A DNA stretch of 37,999 nt from Ignavibacteria bacterium (GTDB taxonomy: Bacteria; Bacteroidota; Ignavibacteria; UBA10030; SZUA-254): assembly GCA_003235555.1 (NCBI GenBank), contig QJVY01000017.1:1-37999 (forward strand), given 5' to 3'. This document shows, piece after piece, positions 1 to 15,708 of this stretch; the stretch's first letter is position 1; each line of letters opens with the position of its first letter. The notes beneath the pieces were generated by a model, which made no database searches, was not told the DNA's origin, and saw nothing but the letters and a program-made list of their open reading frames with translations. A program made the position numbers and the translations under genes.

Positions 1-1567
1 AAAGAGCTCGATTGTTTGTAAGGGCGATAAAACCATTGTGCGCCTGGAACAACGGTGAGATGTCGTTGTACGATAGAGAGAAGTACGCATCCCGACCCGA
101 TGAACCCACCTGAAGTGTGGTCGCATAACCATTGAGGATTTCGCCGTCGTAGGTTGCCGATTTCTGTGTCGAGCCGTACATCCGCGTATCAGAGAAGATC
201 GAGGGATCGTTTGGCTCTTCAGAGCGGGACAGATAGACAACACCCTTGAACGAGTAGTTCTCCCAAAACCTGAAGCCCCAATCCGTCCCGACAACCAGAT
301 TGGATCCTGAACCGCTCAGATGCCGGGTGGACGCCAGTCCACCTATGAACGAGGCGTCTCCGAAACTGTATTGTACCCTCGCCATGTTCACGAGAGAAGT
401 GCGGCCGGTTTCCGCGAAGTCGCTTTCCTCCTCACCGGGGACGAGCAGATTCGTGTTTCGGTCCGAAGCCGACAAGACAGCATAGGACAATGCCCCGGTT
501 TTTCCGATCACCTTCCCGGCGACGAGGGGATCGTTGACGGTCCGTGAGTAGAAAACTCGCAAAGGAGGTCCACCAACCCCCTGGATGCTCGGCTGAAATA
601 GCTCCGATCCTTCGAGGAAGAACGGCCGGCGTTCCGGATAGAACAGCGCGAACGTGGTATTGACACTGATCAGCGAGGCATCCGACTCGATCTGGCTGAA
701 ATCGGGATTGATCACGCCTTCCAACGCCAGGTCGGGTGTCGGTAATACCTTCAGTCCGATTCCCGCGCGTCCAAGCAGTTTCTCCTCCTGGAAGCCGGCG
801 GCCGGATCGCTCCAATTTGCAAGACTGCCACGTTGCGTCCCGATCAAATAGGGGAGCACATCCACAGCCATCGTGGATCGGATCCCCTCGACTCCCTCGA
901 CCGATATCATCTGACAAAGGAGACACGGATTGTTCCTGTCCCACGGATGGGGTGTATACGTCGCGCGCGTTTCCCGGGGATAGCCGCGGCTGAGATAGAC
1001 GTTCCACGTCTGTTCTTCTTTGTCCGGAAACAGGATGCTGCTGAAAGGAATCGCCATCTCAACGGTCCATGAAGAATCGTTCATTGAGGCGGCAGAGTAC
1101 CAGACCAATTCATACGAGATGTCTTCAGAGTGCCCTCCGGCACTCTGAGAAATCACTCCATCCGCCTGGATGTTGCGCGGATTCACGACAAAATCATACG
1201 CCTTCTGCTGATCACCATATGTATCGAGGATCATCGATACGAAGTCGTCTTGCCACACATTGTCACGGTCGGCCACATGTGCTCTGAGTTGTGACATATC
1301 CGAGTCGTAGCATACGAACGAAACAAAGAGGTGCTCGTCAGTGTATGCCATTCGTATCGCGGTCATTTGTCGTGCCGGGACATTTTCTGCGGGATCGACC
1401 TCCAGCCCGGCGAATATGGGTGTGGTTCGCGCCCACCCGGGATCAGATAATGATCCGTCGAGGTCGATCGGCTCGGACAGGCGTGCCGCTGATATCGTGT
1501 ATTGGGCTCCCGCCCTGACGGATGCTGAGAGCAGGAGAACGATGACCAAAGTTAATACTCTAATCAT
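1..1567 (-). CDS. Secreted protein with N-terminal CBM9-like (DOMON-type) domain followed by DUF5916-type outer-membrane region; 3' part truncated by window edge
   Basis: Reverse-strand translation from ATG at 1567 is open to the window edge: MIRVLTLVIVLLLSASVRAGAQYTISAARLSEPIDLDGSLSDPGWARTTPIFAGLEVDPAENVPARQMTAIRMAYTDEHLFVSFVCYDSD... Signal peptide plus 'IDLDGSLSDPGW' and 'AYTDEHLFVSFVCYDSD' are typical of the CBM9-like/DUF5916 family. Not in the supplied track because it has no stop inside the window. Confidence 0.85.
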   Translation of the reverse strand, partial: MIRVLTLVIVLLLSASVRAGAQYTISAARLSEPIDLDGSLSDPGWARTTPIFAGLEVDPAENVPARQMTAIRMAYTDEHLFVSFVCYDSDMSQLRAHVADRDNVWQDDFVSMILDTYGDQQKAYDFVVNPRNIQADGVISQSAGGHSEDISYELVWYSAASMNDSSWTVEMAIPFSSILFPDKEEQTWNVYLSRGYPRETRATYTPHPWDRNNPCLLCQMISVEGVEGIRSTMAVDVLPYLIGTQRGSLANWSDPAAGFQEEKLLGRAGIGLKVLPTPDLALEGVINPDFSQIESDASLISVNTTFALFYPERRPFFLEGSELFQPSIQGVGGPPLRVFYSRTVNDPLVAGKVIGKTGALSYAVLSASDRNTNLLVPGEEESDFAETGRTSLVNMARVQYSFGDASFIGGLASTRHLSGSGSNLVVGTDWGFRFWENYSFKGVVYLSRSEEPNDPSIFSDTRMYGSTQKSATYDGEILNGYATTLQVGSSGRDAYFSLSYNDISPLFQAHNGFIALTNNRAL

Positions 1568-1769
1568 GGATTCCCTTTTTGATTTGCTGAACGGGGTGTG
1601 CGTAATGCAAACAAGTACGTAAAAAACATCGATTTGTTACGATTTTGGGTAACTGGCCCAATTTGAGGGGGCAGGTGAGTTTGCGGCAGTTGAATCCTAT
1701 CTCTATATTTCTACGAGATGTTCAGGCGTAATTATCTTCTGGTTTACTTCTCTGAGTTTGGGCGTTCTT

Positions 1770-2030
1770 CTATGAAGGATATATGCCGCCATGGGAAAAA
1801 CTAATATATGCATTGGCCGAATACGGGGGCTGGTCACTCGCGAGTAAATGGCGGAGGGAGTGGAAATGGAGCCCCTTCCTCGAGAGGCCAGTCAGGTCAA
1901 TGTATCGTTTAAACAGGTGCGTACGCCGACTCTCACCGATTAGTTGATACCGTAAAGTGAAGACGTATTCATTCTGCCTCTTCCCATGACGTGACCGTAA
2001 AAGGTGGAAGACTGAACTCCCGCGTCGCAC
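1770..2030 (-). pseudogene. Degenerate tyrosine recombinase (phage integrase/XerC-D family) C-terminal fragment
   Basis: 86-aa ORF contains NEYVFTLRYQLIGESRRTHLFKRYIDLTGLSRKGLHFHSLRHLLAS, matching the tyrosine recombinase box II (HSLRHTFAS); the following residues do not continue into the LGH...Y region. Confidence 0.65.
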
Positions 2031-2163
2031 TCTTGTAACTCATCCCCGGTATGGTTACATTGTCCTGTCATCAATGCCGTGAGCGGCCCCGCGGGCCGCG
2101 CATCACCGGCCGCCCGTCACGATTCATCCCGCGTCGTTCATACAGTACACATCGGGAATACCC

Positions 2164-2760
2164 ATGCTGCCTGAAATACTGACACGCAACCTTCGCGTAC
2201 TCTTCGTCGGGACGACCGTCTCCCGGACTTCCAATGACCTGGGGTTTTACTACCTCGGCCCGAACAACCGGTTCTGGGGGCTCCTCGAGTATGCCGGCAT
2301 CACGCCGGAACCCGTGGTCACCCCGCAGGAGCGCAAGATCCTGGTGGATACGTTCAAGACGCACGCCCTGAACGATATGTACAAAAAACTCTTCTTCGAA
2401 AAGAAGGAGGCTGCGCTGGCGAAACACCGCATCGGCCTGACGGACCTCAACCGCCGCCGCGTCGTCAGCAATGACGACGAGCCGGGCGCGAAACCGACCG
2501 CCGATGACGTCGGGAAGTTCATCCGGAAGGTGGAGAAATTCTCGCCGGAGGTCGTCGCGTTCACGGCGGGGATGGAAATTTTCGAGGGTTGTTTCAAACC
2601 CCTCTATCCGTCCGCCAGCCGCAACCGGGGGAAACAGGATTTCATGATCGGCGGGTCGGAGGTCTGGCTGATGGGCAGTCCCAGCGGACGCGTCAGGGAT
2701 ACCGAGGCCCTCGAGCAGGTGTTCGAGGACCTTGCGGAGCGGATCAGGGCCGCCGCCTGA
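2164..2760 (+). CDS. Mug/TDG-like uracil-DNA glycosylase superfamily protein with substituted motif I
   Basis: LRVLFVGTTVSRTSNDLGFYYLGPNNRFWGLLEYAG and RGKQDFMIGGSEVWLMGSPSGRVRD align with E. coli Mug [29 protein letters not shown] and [24 protein letters not shown] (recalled). Confidence 0.8.
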   Translation: MLPEILTRNLRVLFVGTTVSRTSNDLGFYYLGPNNRFWGLLEYAGITPEPVVTPQERKILVDTFKTHALNDMYKKLFFEKKEAALAKHRIGLTDLNRRRVVSNDDEPGAKPTADDVGKFIRKVEKFSPEVVAFTAGMEIFEGCFKPLYPSASRNRGKQDFMIGGSEVWLMGSPSGRVRDTEALEQVFEDLAERIRAAA

Positions 2761-2808
2761 ACCGCATTGACCCTGCCGGTTCCGTCGAACCCGACAAAGG
2801 AGAACCTG

Positions 2809-3396
2809 ATGAATGCGAAAATGATCGTCGTCCTGGCCGCTTTCCTGTGGTGTGCATTCACCACGTCCGCCCAGGTCCGGACGGAGGAAACCCGCGTCAC
2901 CGTCGATTCATTGAAAGGCGACACCACCTACACAAAATCGGTCACGATCTCGGAGAGTGAGGACATTACGCCCCGCAACTCGATGATCGTCATCAATCCG
3001 CTGAAATTTTTCCTCTTCTATAATATCACCTACATCCACAAATTTTCCCCCGCGATGGCGGGAGGGGTGGGATTCCAGGTCCCCACGCTCTCTGGCCTGG
3101 ACGGCTTCGGCGTGAGCGCCGAGCTCCGGCTCCACCCTTCGGGGAAGTCCCTCCGGGGGTTCTACGTCGCGCCGAATTTTTCATACAACCACCTCACCAG
3201 CGGTGACGTGGAATCCTCACCCTCTTCGGTCGGGGTGCTGGTCGGCTGGCAGTGGTTCCCGGGTGACGAGTTCGCGATGGGCCTGGGACTGGGTGTGGAT
3301 TACTATGTCGGTTCGGTTTCCGACAAGAGCCACGATTTCAGCAGTTACGACGGCACGGCGCCGCTGGTACGTTTCGACATCGGCTACGCGTGGTGA
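2809..3396 (+). CDS. Outer-membrane beta-barrel-like protein
   Basis: ATG 2809 preceded by AAAGGAG; signal peptide MNAKMIVVLAAFLWCAFTTSAQ; alternating amphipathic glycine/aromatic-rich strands. Confidence 0.6.
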   Translation: MNAKMIVVLAAFLWCAFTTSAQVRTEETRVTVDSLKGDTTYTKSVTISESEDITPRNSMIVINPLKFFLFYNITYIHKFSPAMAGGVGFQVPTLSGLDGFGVSAELRLHPSGKSLRGFYVAPNFSYNHLTSGDVESSPSSVGVLVGWQWFPGDEFAMGLGLGVDYYVGSVSDKSHDFSSYDGTAPLVRFDIGYAW

Positions 3397-3398
3397 AC

Positions 3399-4484
3399 AT
3401 GCAGATCGGGATCGTGGGCCTGCCATTCTCGGGAAAGTCAACCCTCTTCCAGACCATCACCAGGACGCACATCGACCCGGCGGCGCTCGCGCGGTCGGAG
3501 AGCCACCAGGCGATGGTCAGCGTTCCTGACGCCCGGCTCGACCGGATGACCGAAGTCTTCAATCCGAAAAAAACCGTCCACGCGGTGATCGAGTTCGTCG
3601 ACGTCGTGGGTTTGAGCAGGGGGGACGCGGGGTCCACGCAGTTCACGACCAAATTCCTCGCGGACGTGAAGACCAACGACGCGCTGGTTCAGGTCGTCAG
3701 GCTCTTCGCCGACGAAACGGTGGCACACCCGGACGGGCCGGTCGACCCCCTTCGTGATGTTTCGAGTTTCGAAACCGAGTTCATGCTCTCCGACATGGCG
3801 ATCATCGAGACGCGGATCGAACGGATCAGGAAAAACCTGCAGAAAGCGGGCGACGAGGTGGGGAAGCGCGAACTGCCGGTGCTCGAACGCTGCAATGACC
3901 TGCTGCAGGCGGGCACACCGCTCAGGAACGCGGAATTCACGAAGGAGGAGGGGGCGATCCTGAAGACCTACCAGCTCCTCACCGCGAAGCCGATGCTCAT
4001 CGCGCTGAACGGCGACGAGACGCAGGTCGGTTCCATTGAAGAGATTGCCGGGAAAATCCGGGCCGCGCACGGCGGTCCGAACGTGAAAGTCCTGGGATTT
4101 TTCGGAAAGATCGAGCTGGAGATGTCTGAACTTTCAAAAGAAGAGGCCGCGGTCTTCATGACCGAATATGGGATCCGGGAATCGGCGCTGGACACGCTGC
4201 TGAGGGAGGCGTACGACCTGCTCGGTCTTCAGTCGTTTTTCACCGTGGGCGAGGACGAGTGCCGGGCGTGGACCATCAGGAAAGGGATGACGGCCCAGGA
4301 GTCGGCGGGGGTCATCCATTCCGATTTCGTGACCAAATTCATCCGGGCGGAGGTCGTGCATTACGACGACTTCGTCGCCAACGACGCGTCGTTCGCAAAA
4401 GTCAAGGAGAAGGGCCTTTGGCGGCTGGAGGGGAGGGAATACGTCGTCCGGGAGGGCGACATTATTTCGATCCGGCACGGGTAG
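3399..4484 (+). CDS. ychF: YchF/Obg-related P-loop NTPase with C-terminal TGS-like (DUF933) domain
   Basis: MQIGIVGLPFSGKSTLFQTITR at the N-terminus, FVDVVGLSRGD (G3-like), C-terminal SFFTVGEDECRAWTIRKGMTAQESAGVIHSDFVTKFIRAEVV typical of YchF. Confidence 0.85.
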   Translation: MQIGIVGLPFSGKSTLFQTITRTHIDPAALARSESHQAMVSVPDARLDRMTEVFNPKKTVHAVIEFVDVVGLSRGDAGSTQFTTKFLADVKTNDALVQVVRLFADETVAHPDGPVDPLRDVSSFETEFMLSDMAIIETRIERIRKNLQKAGDEVGKRELPVLERCNDLLQAGTPLRNAEFTKEEGAILKTYQLLTAKPMLIALNGDETQVGSIEEIAGKIRAAHGGPNVKVLGFFGKIELEMSELSKEEAAVFMTEYGIRESALDTLLREAYDLLGLQSFFTVGEDECRAWTIRKGMTAQESAGVIHSDFVTKFIRAEVVHYDDFVANDASFAKVKEKGLWRLEGREYVVREGDIISIRHG

Positions 4485-4505
4485 GAGCTCCGGACGAGGA
4501 CGGGC

Positions 4506-5825
4506 CTACTCCACGGTGACGAACCCCTCCCGTGAGACCATTTCGAACACCGGCAGTTCCGTGACGTATGCCCCGGCCCCGAGCGACCGGAAGAGGTAGG
4601 GACCGAACGGCCGGAAGAGGAGACGGGCCCTCACGTTCCACACCCCGGCGGTCGGGGGGATGAAGGCGTATTCGGCGACCCGGGATTCGAAGGGGGCGAG
4701 GGTCCGGTTCACCAGAGAATCCAGTTCGAAGACATTGGACTCGTGTCCGTCCTTGTAGAGCGTCCCGTTGAAAATCGTGAGGAGGGTGTCCTCGTTCGGC
4801 CTGAGCGCGCTGTTGTTGTCCATCAGGTCGCCGTTCGCGTCGAGATATCCGCTCCTGCAGACAGTATCCTCCCCCTTCCACACCGTCACCTCGATCCACA
4901 TCTGCCTGTTGAAGAAGACCGACGTCGGAAGGTTATGGCCCGTTTTGTCGTTGGTGACGCGGACGCCGACGAGGAGGGTGTCGCCGGCGCCGCCCGGGAC
5001 CGGTGGCACGAGCTCCATCGACGCGGCGTTTTTCAGCAAAGAGTCCACCTCGGCCAACTGTTCCGCCTTCCCCGGGAAATCCGTGATCGCCACGTCCACA
5101 CCGGCGAACGAATGCCGGTGCAGGTCGCTGCGCACCGGCCCGGTCGGCGCCGCCCTCCCGGAATATTTCCGCATGTGGCAGTCCTGGCATTCCACCGACA
5201 TCCCGCCCCAGGCGCTGTTCTGCCATTCGGTGAAGGTCACTTCCACGGGAACGTCGTTGACCGTCAGGTCGTGGCACTGCCGGCAGACGTCCGACCGGTC
5301 GTAGTCGGAGTCGTACCCGTGTTCATGGGCGGAAGTGGGCTCCGGGTCGGTGAGCGTTCCGTATTTTACCGGCCCCGGCTCCACCGAGTAGCGGATCAGC
5401 TGGTCGGTCGACAGGAAGGGGGGACGGAGGACGTGACAGAGGTCGCAGGTGATCCCCTCCCTCACCAGCGGATCGAGATCGGGGAAATCGAACGTCGGTT
5501 TCGTGTTTCCGGTCAGGAACCCGACGGGGGCGTGGCACTGGAAACAGGTTTCCCCGAGTTTCCCCGCGGTGCTCTGCTGCAGGGAATTGTTCGCCAGCAT
5601 CCAGATCGGGTCCGCGGTCGAGTATTTGTGCATCGAGCCTTCCCATTCGGCGACGTACCGCGCGTGGCACGGTGCGCAGGCGTCCGCCGAACTGAAATCG
5701 GACAGGGCGTACGCCGCCGCGGGCGGGGGAGCGATGGCCGTTTCGTCCCTGCCGCACCCGGACGTCAGGCCCAGGGCGATGATGGCGGCGAAGGCGCGGA
5801 GCACGGCGATGTGATTGAAGGTCAT
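4506..5825 (-). CDS. Multiheme c-type cytochrome lipoprotein (five CxxCH)
   Basis: Lipobox-like LTSGC at the N-terminus; heme motifs CAPCH, CFQCH, CDLCH, CRQCH, CQDCH. Confidence 0.85.
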   Translation of the reverse strand: MTFNHIAVLRAFAAIIALGLTSGCGRDETAIAPPPAAAYALSDFSSADACAPCHARYVAEWEGSMHKYSTADPIWMLANNSLQQSTAGKLGETCFQCHAPVGFLTGNTKPTFDFPDLDPLVREGITCDLCHVLRPPFLSTDQLIRYSVEPGPVKYGTLTDPEPTSAHEHGYDSDYDRSDVCRQCHDLTVNDVPVEVTFTEWQNSAWGGMSVECQDCHMRKYSGRAAPTGPVRSDLHRHSFAGVDVAITDFPGKAEQLAEVDSLLKNAASMELVPPVPGGAGDTLLVGVRVTNDKTGHNLPTSVFFNRQMWIEVTVWKGEDTVCRSGYLDANGDLMDNNSALRPNEDTLLTIFNGTLYKDGHESNVFELDSLVNRTLAPFESRVAEYAFIPPTAGVWNVRARLLFRPFGPYLFRSLGAGAYVTELPVFEMVSREGFVTVE

Positions 5826-5838
5826 GCGGATTGGATCC

Positions 5839-7275
5839 CTACGGTGAGACCGACAGCCCGGTCGGCATTTTCCCCACCTCGAGGACCCGGACGATACCGG
5901 CGAGGAGGTTGTCGATGACCACCACGTTTCCCACGAAATTGATGTTGTACCGCGGGACGAACGAGTGCCCGGAGTTCTCGTTCGAGACGAAGGTGTACCG
6001 TCCGTCGGGCGTGATGTCGCACCCGTGCGGGTAGTTGAACACCCGGGGCTCCGCGGGGGATTCGTAGACCTTCGCCACCCGGCGCAGTGGGATGCTGATC
6101 GCCGACACCGTGTGATCGCGCCGGTTGGTGACGTAGCAGAGCGTGTTGTCGGGTGTGAACTGCAGGTGCCAGGGCTGGTCCCCGACGGCGAAGGAGTCCA
6201 CCACCGTCATCGATGCCGTGCTGATCATCCGCACCTCCCGGGTCTCCGAGCAGGCGACGGCCAGGACCGAATCGTCGGGGGAGACCGCGAGTTCCATGGG
6301 CAGGTACCTCGGAGTCCCGGTCGGGTTGACGTCCCAGGCGAGCGGTATCGTTGCGACGACCGTATCGCCCGCCACGTCGATGACCGACACGTTGTCGGAC
6401 ATCATGTTCGCCGCGTAGACGGTCGTGCCGGCGTGGTTCATCCGGAGCCCGTGCGGCATGGACCAGAGGGTGATCTCCCCGACGAGGGCCATGGTCGCCG
6501 TGTTCACGACGGACAGTTTGTTGGTGAAAGCGGTGGTGAACTGCGAGACGTAGAGTTTCGACCCGTCGGGCGTGAGGGCGAGGAGGGCCGGGGCGCCGGG
6601 AATCGACGCCTTCCCCACGAGGGTGTCGGTCCGGGCATCGAACTTCCAGACCTCCCCCGCGTTGATCAGCGAGACGTACCAGTAGTCGTCGTTCGCGGTG
6701 ACGAAATGGGGGCCCTCGACGATCTGTGTGGAGCCGACGTCGATGATCCTCGTGACCAGAAGGTGTCCGGCGTCGATGATCGACACGTTGTCCTCACCCT
6801 GGTTCGGCACGTACACCCTCTTCGCGGTTCCCGCATAGGGGGCCGAGCCCGCGTCGTTCACCGCCCCTTCATCGATCCATCGCTTCAGGAAATTCACTTC
6901 TGCCGCGGTCGGCGTCGTCGCCGTAGGGGGATGGGATTTCCGGAGGGGCGTGCCGTCGAAGAGCAGGGTCAGGAGGCTGTTCCTCGCCCTCCGGCTGACG
7001 AGGACTTCTCCGTGGTCCGACCCAGCGATCATTCCGGTCCAGGAAGCGAGCGAGAGTCCCGCGGCCCGGTCAGCCGCGGAATGACATCCGGCAGTCGCGC
7101 AGTTGCCGGTCAGGATCGGCTGGACGTGCCGGGAGTAGACGATCGTCGTGATTGCACCGTAGTCGATGACCGCCACGGGGGATTCATTCTCCGAGCACCC
7201 CGGCGTGATGGCGAGCAGCGCAACGAGGAGTCTGGCGCCCGGGCGGGCGACGCTGTGGAATGTCCTGAACATCAT
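5839..7275 (-). CDS. YVTN-type beta-propeller lipoprotein with N-terminal PSCyt1-like cytochrome module (CATAGCH)
   Basis: Likely start MMFRTFHS... at 7275 (AGGA upstream) rather than 7659; lipobox ITPGC; VQPILTGNCATAGCHSAADRAAGLSL; repeated YVPNQGEDNVSIIDA / LYVSQFTT..LSVVNTATM / VYAANMMSDNVSVIDVAGD propeller blades. Confidence 0.85.
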   Translation of the reverse strand: MMFRTFHSVARPGARLLVALLAITPGCSENESPVAVIDYGAITTIVYSRHVQPILTGNCATAGCHSAADRAAGLSLASWTGMIAGSDHGEVLVSRRARNSLLTLLFDGTPLRKSHPPTATTPTAAEVNFLKRWIDEGAVNDAGSAPYAGTAKRVYVPNQGEDNVSIIDAGHLLVTRIIDVGSTQIVEGPHFVTANDDYWYVSLINAGEVWKFDARTDTLVGKASIPGAPALLALTPDGSKLYVSQFTTAFTNKLSVVNTATMALVGEITLWSMPHGLRMNHAGTTVYAANMMSDNVSVIDVAGDTVVATIPLAWDVNPTGTPRYLPMELAVSPDDSVLAVACSETREVRMISTASMTVVDSFAVGDQPWHLQFTPDNTLCYVTNRRDHTVSAISIPLRRVAKVYESPAEPRVFNYPHGCDITPDGRYTFVSNENSGHSFVPRYNINFVGNVVVIDNLLAGIVRVLEVGKMPTGLSVSP

Positions 7276-7444
7276 GTGGTTCCTGAACTGTCCTGACTTG
7301 CCGGACGTGAAAAAAAGTCCGTCCGGGGGGAAATCCGTCGAATGTGATGAGTGCCGGTGGAAGTAAAGAACTGCGGGAGTGGTGAAATTTCCCGGTTTCG
7401 TGATGGGGACGCCGGGCACCGCTTCGGGCGGGTGGCCTGGTGTG

Positions 7445-7463
7445 GCGCGACTGATCGTCGCGC
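7445..7463. promoter_or_regulatory. Inverted repeat GCGCGAC-TGATC-GTCGCGC in a divergent intergenic region
   Basis: Perfect 7-bp arms with a 5-nt spacer, between the divergent propeller and hydroxyacid dehydrogenase genes. Confidence 0.35.
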
Positions 7464-7733
7464 GTATGACATGAATGTACTCCATTTTACGCGGGCAGAC
7501 AAGTCCCGCACCGGTCCCGACTGACCGTGAATGTCGTGGAGGAACCGGAATCACGCCCCGGTTCGCGTCTCCGGCCATGAATGTCGGCCATCTCCCGAAT
7601 TTCTTTGAAATTGCGTGATTTTTCACCATTTTTACGATGGTGATGTTGATTCCCGGCACATTTTGGGGTGGATTTTATGACTATCCTGATGACGGGGGCA
7701 TTTCCGAGACGAATTATATTCAGGGTGTAGAAA

Positions 7734-8690
7734 ATTACCGTCCTCATAGCAAGCCCGGTCTCCCCGGCGGCGATCGGTGAACTCAGGAAAAAATACGGGG
7801 TAAAAACTGCGATCGGCGTTCCCGCGGCTGAGCTGCACCGGGAATTGTCCACCGCCGAAGTGCTTGTTTTTCGCAGCGGCGTGTCGCTTACCGCGGAGGT
7901 ACTTTCGAAGGCGAAGCAACTCCGGTTGATCGTCCGGGCCGGGTCCGGGATGGACAACATCGACCTCGACTACGTACGGGAAAACGGCATCACCTTCGTC
8001 CGGATCCCCGAACCGGGGGCGAGGGCGGTTGCCGAACTCAGTTTTACGATGATGCTCGCCCTCGCCAGGAACCTCTTCCGGGCGGACGCCGAATGGCGGG
8101 CGGGACACTGGGTGAAGCACGACCTGCCGGCCTACCTCCTGGACCGGAAGGTCCTGGGGATCGTCGGGGCCGGCAACATCGGGACGGTCGTGGGCCGGCT
8201 CGGCGCGGCCTGGGGCATGACGGTGATCGGCTGCGTGGATGAAAGCGTGCGGACCCCCGAAATCGACGCGGGCCTCCTGGCCAACAACATCCGGCCGGCG
8301 GATTTTCGCGAAGTGGTGACGACATCGGATTTCGTGAGTATTCACGTTCCGCTGATGGCGTCCACCAGGGGGTTATTCGACGAAAAGGTCCTCCGTTCGA
8401 TGAAACCGGGATCGTTCCTGTTGAATCTCGCGCGGGGGGGCGTGGTGGACGAACGCGCGCTCCTGAAAATACTCAGGGAGGGCGGAGGCATCGCGGGCGC
8501 GGGCCTCGACGTCCATGAATCCGAGGGCGAGGGAAAAATCTCGCCGCTGGCAGCGCTTCCGAACGTCATCCTGACCCCGCACATGGGGGCGCAGACCGTC
8601 GACTCCCAGCGGGAGATCGGCGAAAGGATGGTCCGGATCGTGGACGACTACGCGGCAAACCGTTCCCCGGCGGGGAAGGACCAGGCATGA
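7734..8690 (+). CDS. D-isomer-specific 2-hydroxyacid dehydrogenase family protein
   Basis: [11 protein letters not shown] (Rossmann), [13 protein letters not shown] (Arg), [11 protein letters not shown] (Glu), [11 protein letters not shown] (His). Homologous-looking sequence extends upstream of the track's TTG start (7845): [36 protein letters not shown]; proposed ATT start at 7734 with AGGG about 8 nt upstream. Confidence 0.85.
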
Positions 8691-9592
8691 AAGGTGCGAC
8701 GGAGATGAAAAAGAAAACGACTCAATTCAGGGAAATGCTCAACTCTCCCGGCCTCGAGTTCCTCATGGAAGCCCACGACGGGTTGAGCGCGAAGATCGTC
8801 GAGGAAGCAGGTTTCCGTGGGATCTGGGCGAGCGGCCTGGCGATCTCCGCGTCCCTGGGGGTGCGGGACAACAACGAGGCGAGCTGGACGCAGGTCCTCG
8901 ACGTCGTCGAATTCATGTCGGACGCGACCGGGATACCGATCATGCTCGACGCGGACACGGGTTACGGGAATTTCAACAACGTCCGGCGGCTTGTCCGGAA
9001 ACTCGAACAGCGCCGGGTGGCCGCCATGTGCATCGAGGACAAGCTCTTCCCGAAGACGAATTCCTTCATCAAGGGCGATCAGCAGCGGCTCGCCGACGTC
9101 GCGGAGTTCTCCGGCAAGATCCGCGCGGCGAAGGACACGCAGCAGGATCCGGACTTCTCGGTGGTGGCGAGGATCGAGGCGCTCATCGCCGGCTGGGGGA
9201 TGGAGGAGGCTCTCTCGCGCGCCGAGGCGTACCGCGCCGCCGGGGCGGACGCGCTCCTGGTGCACAGCAAGCTACCGACGCCGGACCAGGTCCTGGAATT
9301 CATGAAACACTGGGGGAAAAAGTGCCCCGTGGTGATCGTACCCACGATGTATTTCTCCACGCCGGCGGACGTCTTCGCGAAGGCCGGGGTGAGCCTCGTG
9401 ATCTGGGCGAACCACCTCCTGAGGTCTTCGATCACCGCGATGCGCGAGACCGCCAGGACCATCCACGCGGAGCGGTCGATCGCGTCGGTGGAGCCCCGCA
9501 TTGCGTCGGTGAAGGAGGTCTTCAACCTCCAGGACGCGGCCGAACTCGAACGGGCTGAAGAAACCTACCTTCCCAAAAAACCTTCACGCTGA
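8687..9592 (+). CDS. pepM: Phosphoenolpyruvate mutase
   Basis: [12 protein letters not shown] (PepM signature EDKxFPKxNS), [81 protein letters not shown]...YLPKK. ATGA overlap with the upstream gene. Confidence 0.96.
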
Positions 9593-9596
9593 ACTG

Positions 9597-10802
9597 GTGA
9601 AGAACGGGACCCATCGTCCCCCCGCCGTCATCCTGGGCCTCGACGAACTCGTCGGGATCCAGACGGCCAGGATCCTGGCGCGGGAGGGGGTTCCGCTGAT
9701 CGGTGTGGCGAAGCGGCCGTCGGAATACGGCTGCAAGACGAGGTACGTGAAACGCATCGTCGAGGCGAACACCTACGGGGACGAGATCGTCCCCGCCCTC
9801 GTCGAACTGGGAAAGACGCTCGGGGAGAAGGCGGTGCTCATCCCCTGTATCGATGAGTGTGTCCTCCAGGTTTCGCGGCACCGCGCCGCGCTCGATCCGT
9901 ATTATCTCTACGCGCTCCCCTCACCCGGGGTCGTCGAAACGCTGACGGACAAGGAGCGGTTCTTCCGGTTCGCCCTCGAGGAAAAACTCCCGATCCCGAA
10001 GACCTTCCTCATTTCGGGGAGGGAGGAGGCGCTCGAAGCCGCGGCCGGCCTTCGTTATCCCTGCATCCTCAAGCCGTCACTCAAATCGTCGAAGTGGTGG
10101 GAGGCGCTCATGAAGAAGGCGCTGATCATCGCCGACCGGGAGGAGTTCATCCGGACCTACGACCGGGTCGGTGGCCTCGCGAAGGTGCTGATTGCACAGG
10201 ACTGGATTCCCGGCGGGGAGGGGTCGCTCTTCTCTTCGAACTGTTATTACGACCGCGGCGGGAAACCCCTGGTCACCTTCATCGCTCGGAAGATCCGACA
10301 ATGGCCCCCCCTCACCGGTTTCACCAGCCTCGGGGAGGAGGTCCGCAACGATGCCGTCCTGGAGCAGAGCCTGATCATCTTCGGCAAGGTCAGTTACCAC
10401 GGCCTGGGGTACCTGGAGTTCAAGCGGGACGAACATACCGGTGAACACCTCGTCATCGAGGCGAATATCGGCAGGCCCACGGGCCGTTCGGCCCTGGCCG
10501 AGGGTTGCGGGGTGGCGCTCCTGGAGACGATGTACTGCGATGTCGTCGGCCTGCCGCTTCCGGAGAACCGCGAGCAGACCTACCGGGGGGGAAAGTGGAT
10601 CCAGATCGTCAACGATACCCGTTCCGCCTGGTTTTTCTGGCGGCGGGGGGAGCTGACGGTCAGTGAGTGGCTGAAGTCCCTGAGGGGCATCAGGGTCACC
10701 GCGATCTTCTCCTGGCGCGATCCGCTGCCGTTTTTCGTCGACCTCTTCAGCAAGCTGAACAACACCTTTCAGATCGCGATTGGCAGGCGCCGGCGCCTGT
10801 AG
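9597..10802 (+). CDS. ATP-grasp family carboxylate-amine/amino acid ligase
   Basis: GTG start 4 nt after pepM. PreATP-grasp N-terminus (AVILGLDELVGIQTARILAREGVPLIGVAKRP), YPCILKPSLKSSKWWEALMKKALI, LIAQDWIPGGEGSLFSSNCYYD, GLGYLEFKRD...LVIEANIGRPTGRSALAEGCGV. Confidence 0.85.
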   Translation: MKNGTHRPPAVILGLDELVGIQTARILAREGVPLIGVAKRPSEYGCKTRYVKRIVEANTYGDEIVPALVELGKTLGEKAVLIPCIDECVLQVSRHRAALDPYYLYALPSPGVVETLTDKERFFRFALEEKLPIPKTFLISGREEALEAAAGLRYPCILKPSLKSSKWWEALMKKALIIADREEFIRTYDRVGGLAKVLIAQDWIPGGEGSLFSSNCYYDRGGKPLVTFIARKIRQWPPLTGFTSLGEEVRNDAVLEQSLIIFGKVSYHGLGYLEFKRDEHTGEHLVIEANIGRPTGRSALAEGCGVALLETMYCDVVGLPLPENREQTYRGGKWIQIVNDTRSAWFFWRRGELTVSEWLKSLRGIRVTAIFSWRDPLPFFVDLFSKLNNTFQIAIGRRRRL

Positions 10803-10809
10803 AAATACC

Positions 10810-11001
10810 CTACTCCGCCTTCCTGAACACCGTCGCTTTCAGGATGTCCTCCATCAGGCACCAGCCGGTGAAAGCGGACTGGATGAGGTTCACGCCGACG
10901 AAGGCCGTGAGCAGGTACCAGCCCGGATGGACGAAATACGCGAGGAGAAGGCTCGTGACGATGATACATCCCGCGATGGCGCGGATGGTCCGTTCGATCA
11001 T
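10810..11001 (-). CDS. DUF2892-type small inner-membrane protein
   Basis: MIERTIRAIAGCIIVTSLLLAYFVHPGWYLLTAFVGVNLIQSAFTGWCLMEDIL matches the DUF2892 pattern; downstream of the RND operon. Confidence 0.75.
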   Translation of the reverse strand: MIERTIRAIAGCIIVTSLLLAYFVHPGWYLLTAFVGVNLIQSAFTGWCLMEDILKATVFRKAE

Positions 11002-11012
11002 GGATATTCCTT

Positions 11013-11324
11013 TCAGATAAATTGTTCGACATTCACCAGGAAAGCGTGGATCGGATTGAGGAGTCCCCTGTCGCGGGAGTACGCGGCTACGGCCTCCATC
11101 GCCGTGCGGGCCCTGCCCGCCTCCACGACCGAGAAAAAGAGGTGTGAGTAGACCGCCGGGTCGGTGTGCGCGAACCAGTTGCCGCGGTCCCCGGCGTCCT
11201 CCTCCCCCGGGAATGTATACCCCCTGATGTCGGTTTCACTGAAGACGATGACCCCGTGCTCCCGGAGCAACCGCCTGATCTCCGGGGAATGTTCATCAAT
11301 GCTCATCACGACGAGTAATTTCAT
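11013..11324 (-). CDS. PII-like small protein encoded downstream of the RND permease
   Basis: MKLLVVMSIDEHSPEIRRLLREHGVIVFSETDIRGYTFPGEEDAGDRGNWFAHTDPAVYSHLFFSVVEAGRARTAMEAV...; ATG overlaps the RND stop (ATGA at 11321-11324). The track's longer ORF start (11894) lies inside the RND gene. Confidence 0.65.
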   Translation of the reverse strand: MKLLVVMSIDEHSPEIRRLLREHGVIVFSETDIRGYTFPGEEDAGDRGNWFAHTDPAVYSHLFFSVVEAGRARTAMEAVAAYSRDRGLLNPIHAFLVNVEQFI

Positions 11325-14300
11325 GAGACGGTCTCCGTTGCTCTGATTGTTTCCCGGTCCGCGGGGGTCGGGGAGGACTTCGGCGGCTTCCGCGATTCGG
11401 TCATGTAGTAGATCAGGGGCACGATGATCAGCGTGAGCGCCGTCGAGGCGATCGAACCGCCGATGAGGGCGATGGCCAGCCCCTGGAAGATCGGGTCGAA
11501 GAGGATCACGAACGCGCCGATCACGACGGCCCCCGAGGTGAGCAGGATCGGCGTCGTCCTGACGGCCCCGGACTCGATGATGGCGTCGCGCAGCGCGATG
11601 CCCTGTTCCAGGCGGAGGTCGATGAAGTCGATGAGCAGCACCGAGTTTCTCACCATGATGCCCGCCAGCGCGATCATCCCGATCATGGATGTGGCCGTGA
11701 AGAACGCCCCCATGATCCAGTGCCCGGCAAGAATGCCGATCAGGGAGAGAGGGATGGCCACCATCATCACGATCGGGACCTTGAACGACTGGAACCATCC
11801 CACGATGAGCAGATAGATGATCAGCAGGACCACCATGAACGCCGCCCCGAGGTCCCTGAAGACCTCGTACGTGATGTGCCACTCGCCGTCCCACTTCATG
11901 GAATACGATTTTTCGATGAACGGCTGGTTCGTATAGAGCTGGTTCACCGTGAACTCCTCACCGGCCCCGAGCGCGGCGATCCGCTCGTCCATGTCCAGGA
12001 TCGCGTAGACGGGTGACTCGAGCGTGCCGGCAACGTCGGCGGTGACGTACACGACCTCCTGCTGGTTCTTCCTGTAGATCGACCTGGCTTCCTCGGTTTT
12101 CCGCACGCGGACGAGGTCACCCGCCGGAATCATTGAACCCGACGGGGTCATGACATGGACTTTCAGCAGGTTGTCGATTCCCGAACGTTCCCCCTCGTCG
12201 AGCCGCAGAACGATGTTGACCGGTTCGAGCGCACGGGGACGGTAGAGCGATCCTGCGGTATGACCGCTGAGGGCGAGCCCTATCACGGCGTTGATCTGTT
12301 GTGTTGAAACGCCCGCGAGCATCGCCTTTTCCTTGATCACCTCGACGGCGTACTTCGGCTGCGCGTCCTCGACGAGCCAGTCGACATCCACCACCCCATC
12401 GGTCTCCTCGAAGATTTGCCGTATGCGACGTGCGAGTTCAGTCCGTCGTTCGCCGTCGGGGCCGTACACCTCGGCGACGAGAGTGGAGAGGACGGGGGGC
12501 CCGGGGGGCACCTCGGCGATTTTCACCCGTGCGCCGAACCGCCGCGCGATCTGCTCCACCCCCGGCCGGATGCGCTTTGCGATGTCGTGGCTCTGCGGGT
12601 CGCGCTCCCCCTTCGGGAGGAGGTTCACCTGGATGTCCGCCACGTTCGATCCGCGTCGCAGGTCGTAATGGCGGACCAGGCCGTTGAAGTTCATCGGCCC
12701 TGCGGTGCCCGCGTACAGCTGGAAATCGACCACCTCCGGCTGTTTCCTCAGGAAGAGGGCGATCTCCCTCGTGACGGCCGCGGTCCTCTCGAGCGTGGTG
12801 CCCTCCGGTGTGTCCACGATGACCTGGAATTCGTTCTTGTTGTCGAACGGAAGCATTTTTACGGGGACCAGCCGGAACGCGAGCAGGAGGGTCGAGAGCA
12901 GGAGGAGCGCGCTGACGCCCCCGAGGAAAATCCAGCGCTTCTTCGGGGACTCGATCAGCGGCACGATGGCGCGTGCATACCACCGGTAGATGGCCGTTTC
13001 CTCGAGGCGGTAGTGCCCGTTGCCCTGTCCGTGGGGGTCGTTTTTCAGCAGCCGAAATGCGAGCCAGGGGCTGATGATCAGCGCCACCAACAGGGAAAAC
13101 ATCATCGCCATGGCCGCCCCGATGGGCATGGGACTCATGTACGGCCCCATCAACCCCGAGACGAACGCCATCGGGAGGACGGCCGCGATCACCGTGAAGG
13201 TGGCGAGGATCGTCGGGTTGCCGACCTCGTCGATCGACGTGATGGCCGCCTGCAAAAACGGAAGGCGCTTCATTTTAAAATGACGGTGCATGTTCTCCAC
13301 GATGATGATCGAATCGTCGACCACGATGCCGGTCACGAAGACGAGGGCGAAGAGCGTAATGCGGTTGAGTGTGTACCCGAAGAGATAGTAGACGAACAGC
13401 GTCAGGGCGAAGGTGACGGGTACCGACGCGAAAATCACGACCCCGCTGCGCCACCCCATCGTGAGCGCGACCAGCAGGGTGACCGCCAGGATCGCCACCG
13501 ACAGGTGTTTCAGGAGTTCCGACACCTTCTCGGACGCCGTCTCGCCGTAGTTCCGTGTGACGGTGACGTTGATGTCCGAGGGGATCAGCGTACCTTTCAA
13601 TGCTTCGGTTTTCAGGAGCACCTCTTCGGCGATACGCCTCGCGTCGGCGCCCTTGCGTTTCGACACCGACAGCGTGACGGCGGGATAGTCCAGCTGTCCC
13701 GGCCCGGGTCCGGCCGTCGCCGCGGCCGTCCGGTCGCCGGCGCCGTAACGGACGTAGTCCGTGACCTCGCCGTAGCCGTCGGTGATCTCCGCGACATTGC
13801 GGAGCCGGACGGGCAACCCGTCCCGGGCCCCCACGACCAGGTCGCCGATCTCCTTTGCGCTCCTGAAAAAATCTCCCGTTTCGACGAGGAACTCCGCATC
13901 CCCGCTCGAGAATTTTCCCGCGGCCGACTGTCTGTTCGCCGCGCCGAGCTGCTGTACGATCATGAGCGGGTCCAGCCGGTATGCGGCCATCCTCTCCATG
14001 TCGAGGGTGACGCCGACCTCCCTGCGCCGGCCACCCGTCAGGCGAACTTCACCGACGTCCGCGATCTGCTTGACCTCTCCGGCGAGTTCATCGGCGACGC
14101 CCCGCAGGATCCGGCCGTCCGGACCGGCGCTCCAGAGCGTCAGCGCAAGGATGGGGACGTCGTCGATCGATTTCGTCTTGATGAACGGGGGCATCATGCC
14201 GGGGGGCATGACGTCCATGTGTTTCTGGATTTCGTTGTAGAGTTTGAAGAGGCTCCTCTCCAAGTCCTCTCCCACGTAATACCTCACGATGAGCATCGCC

Positions 14301-14581
14301 CGTCCCGGCATGGACGTCGAGTAGACGTATTCCACGCCCGCGATGGAGGAGACGATTTTTTCGAGGGGTTTCGTGATCCTGTTTTCGATTTCGCGGGGGC
14401 CCGCGCCGGGGAAGGCCACGAAGATGTCCGCCATGGGGACGGTGATCTGCGGTTCCTCCTCGCTCGGAGTGAGGTAGATGCTGTAGAGCCCGATCGCCAT
14501 GAAACCGGCGATGAACAGCGGCGTCAGCTTGGAGTTGATGAACGCCCGCGCGATCCGTCCGGAGAGGCCGTCCTTCGTCAT
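11321..14581 (-). CDS. RND-family efflux transporter permease
   Basis: 1086 aa; FVTGIVVDDSIIIVENMHRHF, two blocks of TM segments, IGMIALAGIMVRNSVLLIDFI, SGAVVIGAFVILFDPIFQGLAIALIGGS. Confidence 0.96.
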   Translation of the reverse strand: MTKDGLSGRIARAFINSKLTPLFIAGFMAIGLYSIYLTPSEEEPQITVPMADIFVAFPGAGPREIENRITKPLEKIVSSIAGVEYVYSTSMPGRAMLIVRYYVGEDLERSLFKLYNEIQKHMDVMPPGMMPPFIKTKSIDDVPILALTLWSAGPDGRILRGVADELAGEVKQIADVGEVRLTGGRRREVGVTLDMERMAAYRLDPLMIVQQLGAANRQSAAGKFSSGDAEFLVETGDFFRSAKEIGDLVVGARDGLPVRLRNVAEITDGYGEVTDYVRYGAGDRTAAATAGPGPGQLDYPAVTLSVSKRKGADARRIAEEVLLKTEALKGTLIPSDINVTVTRNYGETASEKVSELLKHLSVAILAVTLLVALTMGWRSGVVIFASVPVTFALTLFVYYLFGYTLNRITLFALVFVTGIVVDDSIIIVENMHRHFKMKRLPFLQAAITSIDEVGNPTILATFTVIAAVLPMAFVSGLMGPYMSPMPIGAAMAMMFSLLVALIISPWLAFRLLKNDPHGQGNGHYRLEETAIYRWYARAIVPLIESPKKRWIFLGGVSALLLLSTLLLAFRLVPVKMLPFDNKNEFQVIVDTPEGTTLERTAAVTREIALFLRKQPEVVDFQLYAGTAGPMNFNGLVRHYDLRRGSNVADIQVNLLPKGERDPQSHDIAKRIRPGVEQIARRFGARVKIAEVPPGPPVLSTLVAEVYGPDGERRTELARRIRQIFEETDGVVDVDWLVEDAQPKYAVEVIKEKAMLAGVSTQQINAVIGLALSGHTAGSLYRPRALEPVNIVLRLDEGERSGIDNLLKVHVMTPSGSMIPAGDLVRVRKTEEARSIYRKNQQEVVYVTADVAGTLESPVYAILDMDERIAALGAGEEFTVNQLYTNQPFIEKSYSMKWDGEWHITYEVFRDLGAAFMVVLLIIYLLIVGWFQSFKVPIVMMVAIPLSLIGILAGHWIMGAFFTATSMIGMIALAGIMVRNSVLLIDFIDLRLEQGIALRDAIIESGAVRTTPILLTSGAVVIGAFVILFDPIFQGLAIALIGGSIASTALTLIIVPLIYYMTESRKPPKSSPTPADRETIRATETVS

Positions 14582-15708
14582 CTGGACACCCCGACCCTGA
14601 CTCCGTCGGCAATCCGCCGGTCGGAGGTCGTGATAACTTCATCCCCGTCTCCGAGGCCGCTGAGGATTTCGACCCGACCGTCTTCGAAACGCCGCCCCGT
14701 CCGGACCCAGCGGAGGAGGGCCTCGCCGTCCCCGGTGCGGATGAAGACGCCGTCGAGATCTCCCCGCCGGACGAGGAGGTCCTCGGGGATTGCAACGACG
14801 TTCACGTCCCGGGATCCGCCCCCGGCAGCTATGAGGCTGACCGACGCGTACATCCCCGGATGGAGCCGCACGCGGGGTGGCGGCTGGATGGCGGCCTGGA
14901 CCCGGTACTGCCTGCTGCCGGGATCGCCCGAGGGATTCACCCTGTCGACGGTTCCCGGGATGATCGTTCCCGGATCCGCCGCGTCGACAACCACTTCCAC
15001 GGCTCCGCCTGTACTGACCGCGGCGATTTCACTCTCCGGGACGCTGAAATTCACCCTCAGTTCACGCGTGTCCTCGACCGCGAGGAGCGGAACCCCGGGG
15101 CTGGCGAGGTCACCCTCCTCGACGTACTTCCCGACGACGGTGCCGTCGATGGGTGAGGCGATATCGGCATATTTCAGCATGTCGTCGATTTCCTTCGCCA
15201 TTTCCTCCACCGATTTCGATTTCGCCCGCGCGACGTCGTAGGCCATCTGCATGTCGTCCATCTCCTTCTGCGTCGCACTCTTCCTGGCGTAGAGCTCGCG
15301 GATTCTGTCGTAATTGGAGGTGATGTTCGCGAGCGCGGCTGCCGCCTCGGCCCGACCCGCCTCCACCTGGGCCTTTTTCGCCTTCAGGTCCCCGCTCCGG
15401 ATGGAGATCAGTACCTGTCCCGCCGATACCCGCGCTCCTACGTCGAAGGGGATGGAGGAAATCTCTCCCATGAGTTTGGTGCTGATGGTGACGCGGGTCC
15501 TGCCTTCCACCGTCCCGGCGTACCTGAACTCGCGGGCGCGGGGGGCGGCGGCGACCCGCATCGTGGTGACGGCCAGAGGCGGCGTACCCCCCTGGTCGTC
15601 CCCGTTTCCGCACGCAGTGAACAGAAGGGAGAGCGCGGGAAGGAAAGCGATGATGGCAATGCCGGGACCGCTGAACCGTCGGGACCGGATGGTATTCAGG
15701 AAGCTCAT
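14578..15708 (-). CDS. RND efflux periplasmic adaptor (MFP/HlyD-like)
   Basis: REFRYAGTVEGRTRVTISTKLMGEISSIPFDVGARVSAGQVLISI; ASPIDGTVVGKYVEEGDLASPGVPLLAVED; lipoprotein-like LLFTACGNG. Confidence 0.93.
   Translation of the reverse strand: MSFLNTIRSRRFSGPGIAIIAFLPALSLLFTACGNGDDQGGTPPLAVTTMRVAAAPRAREFRYAGTVEGRTRVTISTKLMGEISSIPFDVGARVSAGQVLISIRSGDLKAKKAQVEAGRAEAAAALANITSNYDRIRELYARKSATQKEMDDMQMAYDVARAKSKSVEEMAKEIDDMLKYADIASPIDGTVVGKYVEEGDLASPGVPLLAVEDTRELRVNFSVPESEIAAVSTGGAVEVVVDAADPGTIIPGTVDRVNPSGDPGSRQYRVQAAIQPPPRVRLHPGMYASVSLIAAGGGSRDVNVVAIPEDLLVRRGDLDGVFIRTGDGEALLRWVRTGRRFEDGRVEILSGLGDGDEVITTSDRRIADGVRVGVSR

Follow-up and report, generated by a model that had tools for sequence, protein, structure and literature searches.

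A conserved dehydrogenase, PEP mutase and ATP-grasp gene set and a candidate phosphonolactate route toward surface polymers in Ignavibacteria and other bacteria

We describe a compact operon in an Ignavibacteria genome that encodes a 2-hydroxyacid dehydrogenase (HDH), a PEP mutase (PepM) and an ATP-grasp ligase (ATPG), and we propose that the three act in the order PepM, reduction, ligation. On balance we think it probable that this is the pathway and that its product is, most likely, part of a polysaccharide or surface polymer. The case is built on the gene identities, their conserved order, their dedicated clades and the absence of the decarboxylase Ppd, each of which is established by sequence comparison. 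The window analyzed is a whole contig of 37,999 nucleotides (QJVY01000017.1, assembly GCA_003235555.1), and the source metagenome-assembled genome (MAG) comprises 2.77 Mb in 269 contigs and is about 90% complete. The operon consists of three plus-strand frames that together span 7734–10802 and lie away from the contig ends (Table 1).

Table 1. Features of the HDH–PepM–ATPG operon, numbered as in the window
Feature	Coordinates	Strand	Remarks
HDH, PGDH-like D-2-hydroxyacid dehydrogenase, candidate phosphonopyruvate reductase	7734..8690	+	probable ATT start; Pfam 2-Hacid_dh/2-Hacid_dh_C
PepM, PEP mutase, motif [10 protein letters not shown]	8687..9592	+	TIGR02320; alternative start ATG 8705
ATPG, ATP-grasp ligase, cassette-specific clade, motif EANIGRPTGRS	9597..10802	+	GTG start
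ATGA stop/start overlap of HDH and PepM, given PepM start 8687	8687..8690	+	sequence
4-nt gap, PepM stop to ATPG GTG start	9593..9596	+	sequence

The original prediction, made from this DNA alone, placed the three genes in a single operon between a cytochrome locus and an efflux operon, and both statements stand. The frames, the ATGA overlap and the 4-nt gap are where it had put them, and the cassette is flanked by a multihaem cytochrome and a beta-propeller gene at one end and, at the other, by an RND efflux operon on the opposite strand. The overlap itself is uncertain in this contig because a second ATG, at 8705, matches the N-termini of relatives of PepM as well as the ATG at 8687 does; two related loci (L046 and L070) have the same kind of HDH/PepM overlap. 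A promoter scan found nothing, and the terminator-like matches were uninformative. A chimeric contig or late insertion is unsupported, as the GC content of the operon equals that of its flanks (0.62–0.65).

The middle gene was correctly named a PEP mutase. Its product, of 301 residues, scores 390.5 bits against TIGR02320 (curated cut-off, 319.55), its best PDB match is the Mytilus PEP mutase 1m1b (E 3e-125), and the predicted EDKxxxxxNS signature, here [10 protein letters not shown], is identical in the Mytilus enzyme within a full-length alignment. We rejected assignment as a phosphonopyruvate hydrolase (TIGR02321, 243.9 bits versus a cut-off of 374.4). The protein, the only PepM in the ~90% complete MAG, is predicted to convert PEP to phosphonopyruvate. 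In our tree it is nested among Pnt-type fused PepMs; it is itself unfused, the next gene being ATPG, and no nucleotidyltransferase was found fused to or beside it.

Neither Ppd nor a 2-AEP transaminase or cytidylyltransferase had been seen near the cassette, and the genome as a whole agrees for the first two. Over the source MAG (~90% complete), where a search for Ppd had been suggested, none exceeds the cut-off, the best candidate reaching 23 bits against 312.5 (TIGR03297); the best candidate for the 2-AEP transaminase PhnW, which lies beside SerA, reaches 106 bits against 400.8. At E 1e-20, Ppd was found in 0 of 12 genomes (ten cassette genomes including the source, plus those of loci L041 and L044, described below), and the same search recovered it in 12 of 12 control genomes with the usual fused PepM, in two of them as split halves. 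For ten cassette versus twelve control genomes, the chance of so clean a split is ~1.5e-6 if relatedness is ignored.

HDH is a member of the 2-hydroxyacid dehydrogenase family (Pfam PF02826 and PF00389), although its start codon is irregular. The frame is open over 7731–8690, after an in-frame TAG at 7728 (positions 7725–7736 read GTG TAG AAA ATT), and its first ATG, GTG or TTG is the TTG at 7845, where initiation would remove the first beta strands. Because the ATT at 7734 aligns exactly with the start Met of nine relatives, the start given in the original prediction is reasonable, and reflects either the use of ATT, a rare start codon, or a base error. The catalytic Arg/Glu/His triad, described as intact in the original prediction, is indeed so in the alignment, and the PGDH-like RS and RAG arginines are retained, whereas an active-site loop, DVHxxEGEG (also given as DVHExEGEG), is specific to the clade and replaces the DVFxxEP found elsewhere. 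The window HDH is 48–61% identical to nine PepM-adjacent HDHs and at most 43% identical to other 2-hydroxyacid dehydrogenases of the same genomes, the one exception being a short fragment (45% over 95 residues). HDHs from cassettes group together in a single clade (support 100/99), separate from the housekeeping phosphoglycerate dehydrogenase, and HDH lies beside PepM in every cassette seen.

The best PDB matches of HDH are phosphoglycerate dehydrogenases, and the folds nearest to its model are those of PGDHs, among them human PHGDH bound to NADH and 3-phosphoglycerate. This 3-phosphoglycerate ligand is the one-oxygen-longer analogue of the product that we propose. Nevertheless, we rejected the identification of HDH as SerA. 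The two are alike in fold, catalytic triad and best PDB matches, but HDH has no regulatory domain, falls in a separate clade and scores 221.6 bits against a TIGR01327 cut-off of 454; a SerA-type enzyme is encoded elsewhere in the source genome. In most cassette HDHs, the second Rossmann strand has an acidic residue close to its end, which suggests that the cofactor is NADH.

ATPG gave weak library matches only. It is 44–52% identical to other cassette ligases and no more than 30% identical to other homologues, and the cassette ATPGs form one clade (support 100/99) in which 88 residues are invariant. Among these, Lys-159, Lys-174, Glu-274, Glu-288, Asn-290 and Arg-293 are candidate catalytic residues, and a C-terminal GRPTGRS stretch is absent from background homologues. 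The model (pLDDT 88.8) has an ATP-grasp fold, with PurK, RizA and CarB as nearest matches; the family is broad, and neither sequence nor a modeled fold can reveal the substrate. On plasmids, PepM matches reach up to 67% identity, and the best ATPG matches are 28–29% identical and annotated as carbamoyl-phosphate-synthase-like.

The synteny that the original prediction had proposed to look for is present. A PepM search of 84,980 species genomes, from which the nearest 80 loci were kept, together with a search described below, gave nine further genomes from several phyla in which HDH, PepM and ATPG occur in the same order and on the same strand. The phyla include Chloroflexota (loci L038, L040, L046 and L048), Planctomycetota (L049, the named-strain record of Candidatus Laterigemmans baculatus JC640), Ignavibacteriota and Acidobacteriota (L074), among others; L039 is from BMS3Abin03 and L042 from Ignavibacterium, and in both, PepM and ATPG are separated by two additional genes. 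In a Pirellulaceae locus (L070), the contig ends after PepM. The ninth complete cassette, L169, turned up when 400 genomes from the L046 phylum were searched with an ATPG profile. Its PepM is divergent (motif EDNLFPKRNS; 248.6 bits, below the TIGR02320 cut-off), so that HDH and ATPG accompany PepM across phyla even where, as here, PepM is divergent.

The cassette is rare. It was found in 2 of these 400 genomes, one of them the L046 genome itself, and an ATPG-profile search of 392 Planctomycetota genomes found it only in that of L049. In the host class, 12 of 294 genomes have PepM, and an HDH homologue lies within its 1.5-kb flanks only in the source genome; in the host phylum, 22 of 396 genomes have ATPG homologues, which lie beside PepM, within the flanks examined, again only in the source genome.

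Elsewhere, the cassette is surrounded by genes for surface polymers. FemAB and exopolysaccharide-export genes lie around L039 and L042, a PgaB-like deacetylase lies by L038 and L049, a PgaC-like glycosyltransferase lies by L074, and alginate-lyase-like proteins are encoded around other cassettes as well. In L169, a single same-strand operon (1510–15488) comprises a flippase, an HprK-like protein (F5), a thymidylate-kinase-like protein (F6), HDH, PepM, ATPG, a polysaccharide deacetylase, Wzz, an epimerase and two glycosyltransferases. At least one of F5 and F6 is also present with L039, L042, L046, L048, L049 and L074; in L042, the pair occupies 9012–10882. F5 weakly matches HPr kinase and the phosphonate kinase FomB, and the latter match was set aside as evidence, being weak (E ~1e-4) and limited to the P-loop region. 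F5 and F6 are possible phosphonate kinases.

The source genome differs in this respect. Its cassette lies outside any polysaccharide locus, and F6 was sought in the genome and not found. Such a locus is present on a separate contig, C135 (L153), where, along with an ATP-grasp paralogue (30% identical), there are FemAB-like genes, a deacetylase, glycosyltransferases, a flippase and a polymerase-like gene, all but the paralogue assigned by reading the sequence. On this comparison, the operon in the window is a pared-down version, with three genes, of a set usually found in surface-polymer loci. If F6 is essential, the product in the source genome may differ, or the cassette may be incomplete.

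In the pathway that we favor, PepM would rearrange phosphoenolpyruvate to phosphonopyruvate, and HDH, as a dedicated relative of phosphoglycerate dehydrogenase, would use NADH to reduce phosphonopyruvate to phosphonolactate, replacing decarboxylation by Ppd. ATPG would then activate a carboxylate, in the simplest case the one on phosphonolactate, for coupling to an amine or hydroxyl. The natural substrate of PHGDH has just one oxygen more than phosphonopyruvate, so phosphonolactate formation should need no new chemistry, and phosphonopyruvate is the likely substrate of HDH. The PepM equilibrium lies more than 500-fold against phosphonopyruvate (PMC12871164). From standard potentials, reduction by NADH favors the hydroxyacid by about 1e4; if NADH in the cell amounts to a few per cent of NAD, the PepM and reduction steps taken together come out roughly even. 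ATP-driven ligation would pull the unfavorable PepM equilibrium forward and push the route onward, which would be a reason for the presence of ATPG in the set. The biosynthetic direction is thus likely; the substrate and acceptor of ATPG we can suggest only tentatively. The acceptor would most likely belong to an extracellular polysaccharide or another surface polymer, as a component or as a precursor; this is favored because the same cassette lies inside exopolysaccharide operons elsewhere.

The original prediction had left the reduced and ligated product as either a small phosphonopeptide-like molecule or a surface decoration. Synteny, the lack of Ppd and the separate HDH clade speak for the reduce-then-ligate scheme, but the context makes decoration of a surface polymer the likelier destination. 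A free phosphonolactyl-amino acid or ester, phosphonopeptide-like, made by the same first two steps and exported by the neighboring RND pump, is rather unlikely, although it has several points in its favor. In known pathways, phosphonopeptides and DHPPA-valine are products of ATP-grasp ligases (PMC11867202, PMC12723261), and the L-amino-acid ligase RizA is among the generic ATP-grasp folds that the ATPG model resembles. In L048, the start of a second ATPG-like gene (5847–6258) lies in tandem with the first and is truncated by the end of the contig. In the source genome, moreover, the operon stands apart from polysaccharide genes and adjoins the efflux operon. This position, like the irregular HDH start codon, counts against the surface-polymer pathway that we favor. 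However, the efflux genes are on the other strand, none are seen beside cassettes elsewhere, and the related cassettes lie among polysaccharide genes.

The remaining alternatives question the pathway itself. It is improbable that HDH acts on another 2-oxoacid, such as 3-phosphohydroxypyruvate, leading to a different phosphonate, or that the PepM product passes directly to the ligase or to the kinases seen elsewhere; the proximity of HDH to phosphoglycerate dehydrogenases in sequence and fold and the weak FomB-like match of F5 would fit such schemes, but the source genome already has a SerA-type enzyme, the active-site region of HDH is clade-specific, and HDH adjoins PepM in every case found. 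Operation in reverse, from phosphonolactate through phosphonopyruvate to PEP with release of usable phosphorus, is very improbable. The failure to find Ppd and a PepM equilibrium lying more than 500-fold toward PEP (PMC12871164) would suit catabolism, whereas the presence of an ATP-consuming ligase in every complete set and the biosynthetic character of the polysaccharide setting do not, and no uptake genes were seen adjoining the source cassette. Oxidation of 2-hydroxyacids by NAD+ is, in addition, uphill. We give least weight of all to an ordinary 2-AEP/Pnt route, with Ppd in the missing 10% of the MAG and HDH and ATPG as unrelated neighbors. A genome that is 90% complete and in 269 contigs leaves room for a lost gene, and PepM is nested among Pnt-type fused PepMs; against this, Ppd is found in 0 of 10 cassette genomes versus 12 of 12 controls with fused PepM, and HDH and ATPG track PepM across phyla, that of L169 included.

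The analogy of the favored pathway to known systems is close in parts. Zhang et al. (2022) reportedly described a valinophos pathway in Streptomyces durhamensis (cited in PMC11867202, PMC12723261 and PMC12871164). Like the route that we propose, that pathway combines a PepM, a phosphonopyruvate reductase, VlpB (PMC11867202), and an ATP-grasp enzyme, VlpF (PMC12723261); unlike the cassette, it continues to 2,3-dihydroxypropylphosphonate and a valine ester. The cassette differs in being a three-gene core, in other phyla, with a polysaccharide setting elsewhere. That a 2-hydroxyacid dehydrogenase can reduce phosphonopyruvate to phosphonolactate has already been described as a branch point (PMC12871164), so the predicted phosphonolactate branch is not new as chemistry. 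VlpB- and FrbC-type genomes are together put at about 8% (PMC11933879), and published surveys may already include members of the cassette.

In the phosphonoalamide pathway (PnaD PepM, PnaA transaminase and PnaB/PnaC ATP-grasp ligases; PMC11867202), PepM is likewise followed by a non-decarboxylating enzyme that uses phosphonopyruvate and by ATP-grasp ligation, although a transaminase takes the place of the dehydrogenase and the products are free tripeptides. Closer to that pathway than the window cassette is a Myxococcales locus (L044, 7977–11360), in which the genes after PepM encode an aspartate-aminotransferase-like enzyme and then a different ATP-grasp protein. Its PepM groups with the window PepM in the tree, and we regard the locus, by its gene content, as a candidate phosphonoalanine-peptide set. 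The arrangement implies that the enzyme using phosphonopyruvate is exchangeable, with ligation in both. A Paenibacillaceae locus (L041, 7998–8879) also has an unfused PepM, with neighbors that include a sulfatase and a 6-phosphogluconate-dehydrogenase-like NAD protein; no HDH was found among these neighbors and no Ppd or ATPG in the genome.

Surface decoration is the presumed role of most bacterial phosphonate gene sets, and the activation that has been described for it is nucleotidyl transfer (PMC6697681). In Pnt tailoring (PepM, Ppd, AEP transaminase and the cytidylyltransferase PntC; PMC6697681), the PepM belongs to the same broad clade as ours, and the likely destination, a surface glycan, is shared. 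In contrast, the cassette has no Ppd, no PhnW over the cut-off and no fused nucleotidyltransferase domain, and ATP-grasp ligation would replace nucleotidyl activation. In the papers that we could search, we found no description of the HDH–PepM–ATPG core, its kinase-like partners, its polysaccharide setting or its exclusion of Ppd. More broadly, and with less confidence than in the pathway itself, we entertain the idea of a second, non-nucleotidyl surface route, in which a Pnt-type PepM would have lost Ppd and the cytidylyltransferase and gained a reductase dedicated to phosphonopyruvate and ATPG (in the full version, also two kinase-like partners), such that the extracellular polysaccharides of several phyla would bear phosphonolactyl groups; at present the odds seem to us somewhat against it. 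The presence of the cassette in a named strain, Candidatus Laterigemmans baculatus JC640, makes the idea directly testable. If it is true, a further surface phosphonate route would exist across several phyla, poorly cultured ones among them, and HDH–PepM–ATPG without Ppd would provide a rule for genome mining. Phosphonolactate would then be a building block of environmental polysaccharides and a possible source of organic phosphorus.
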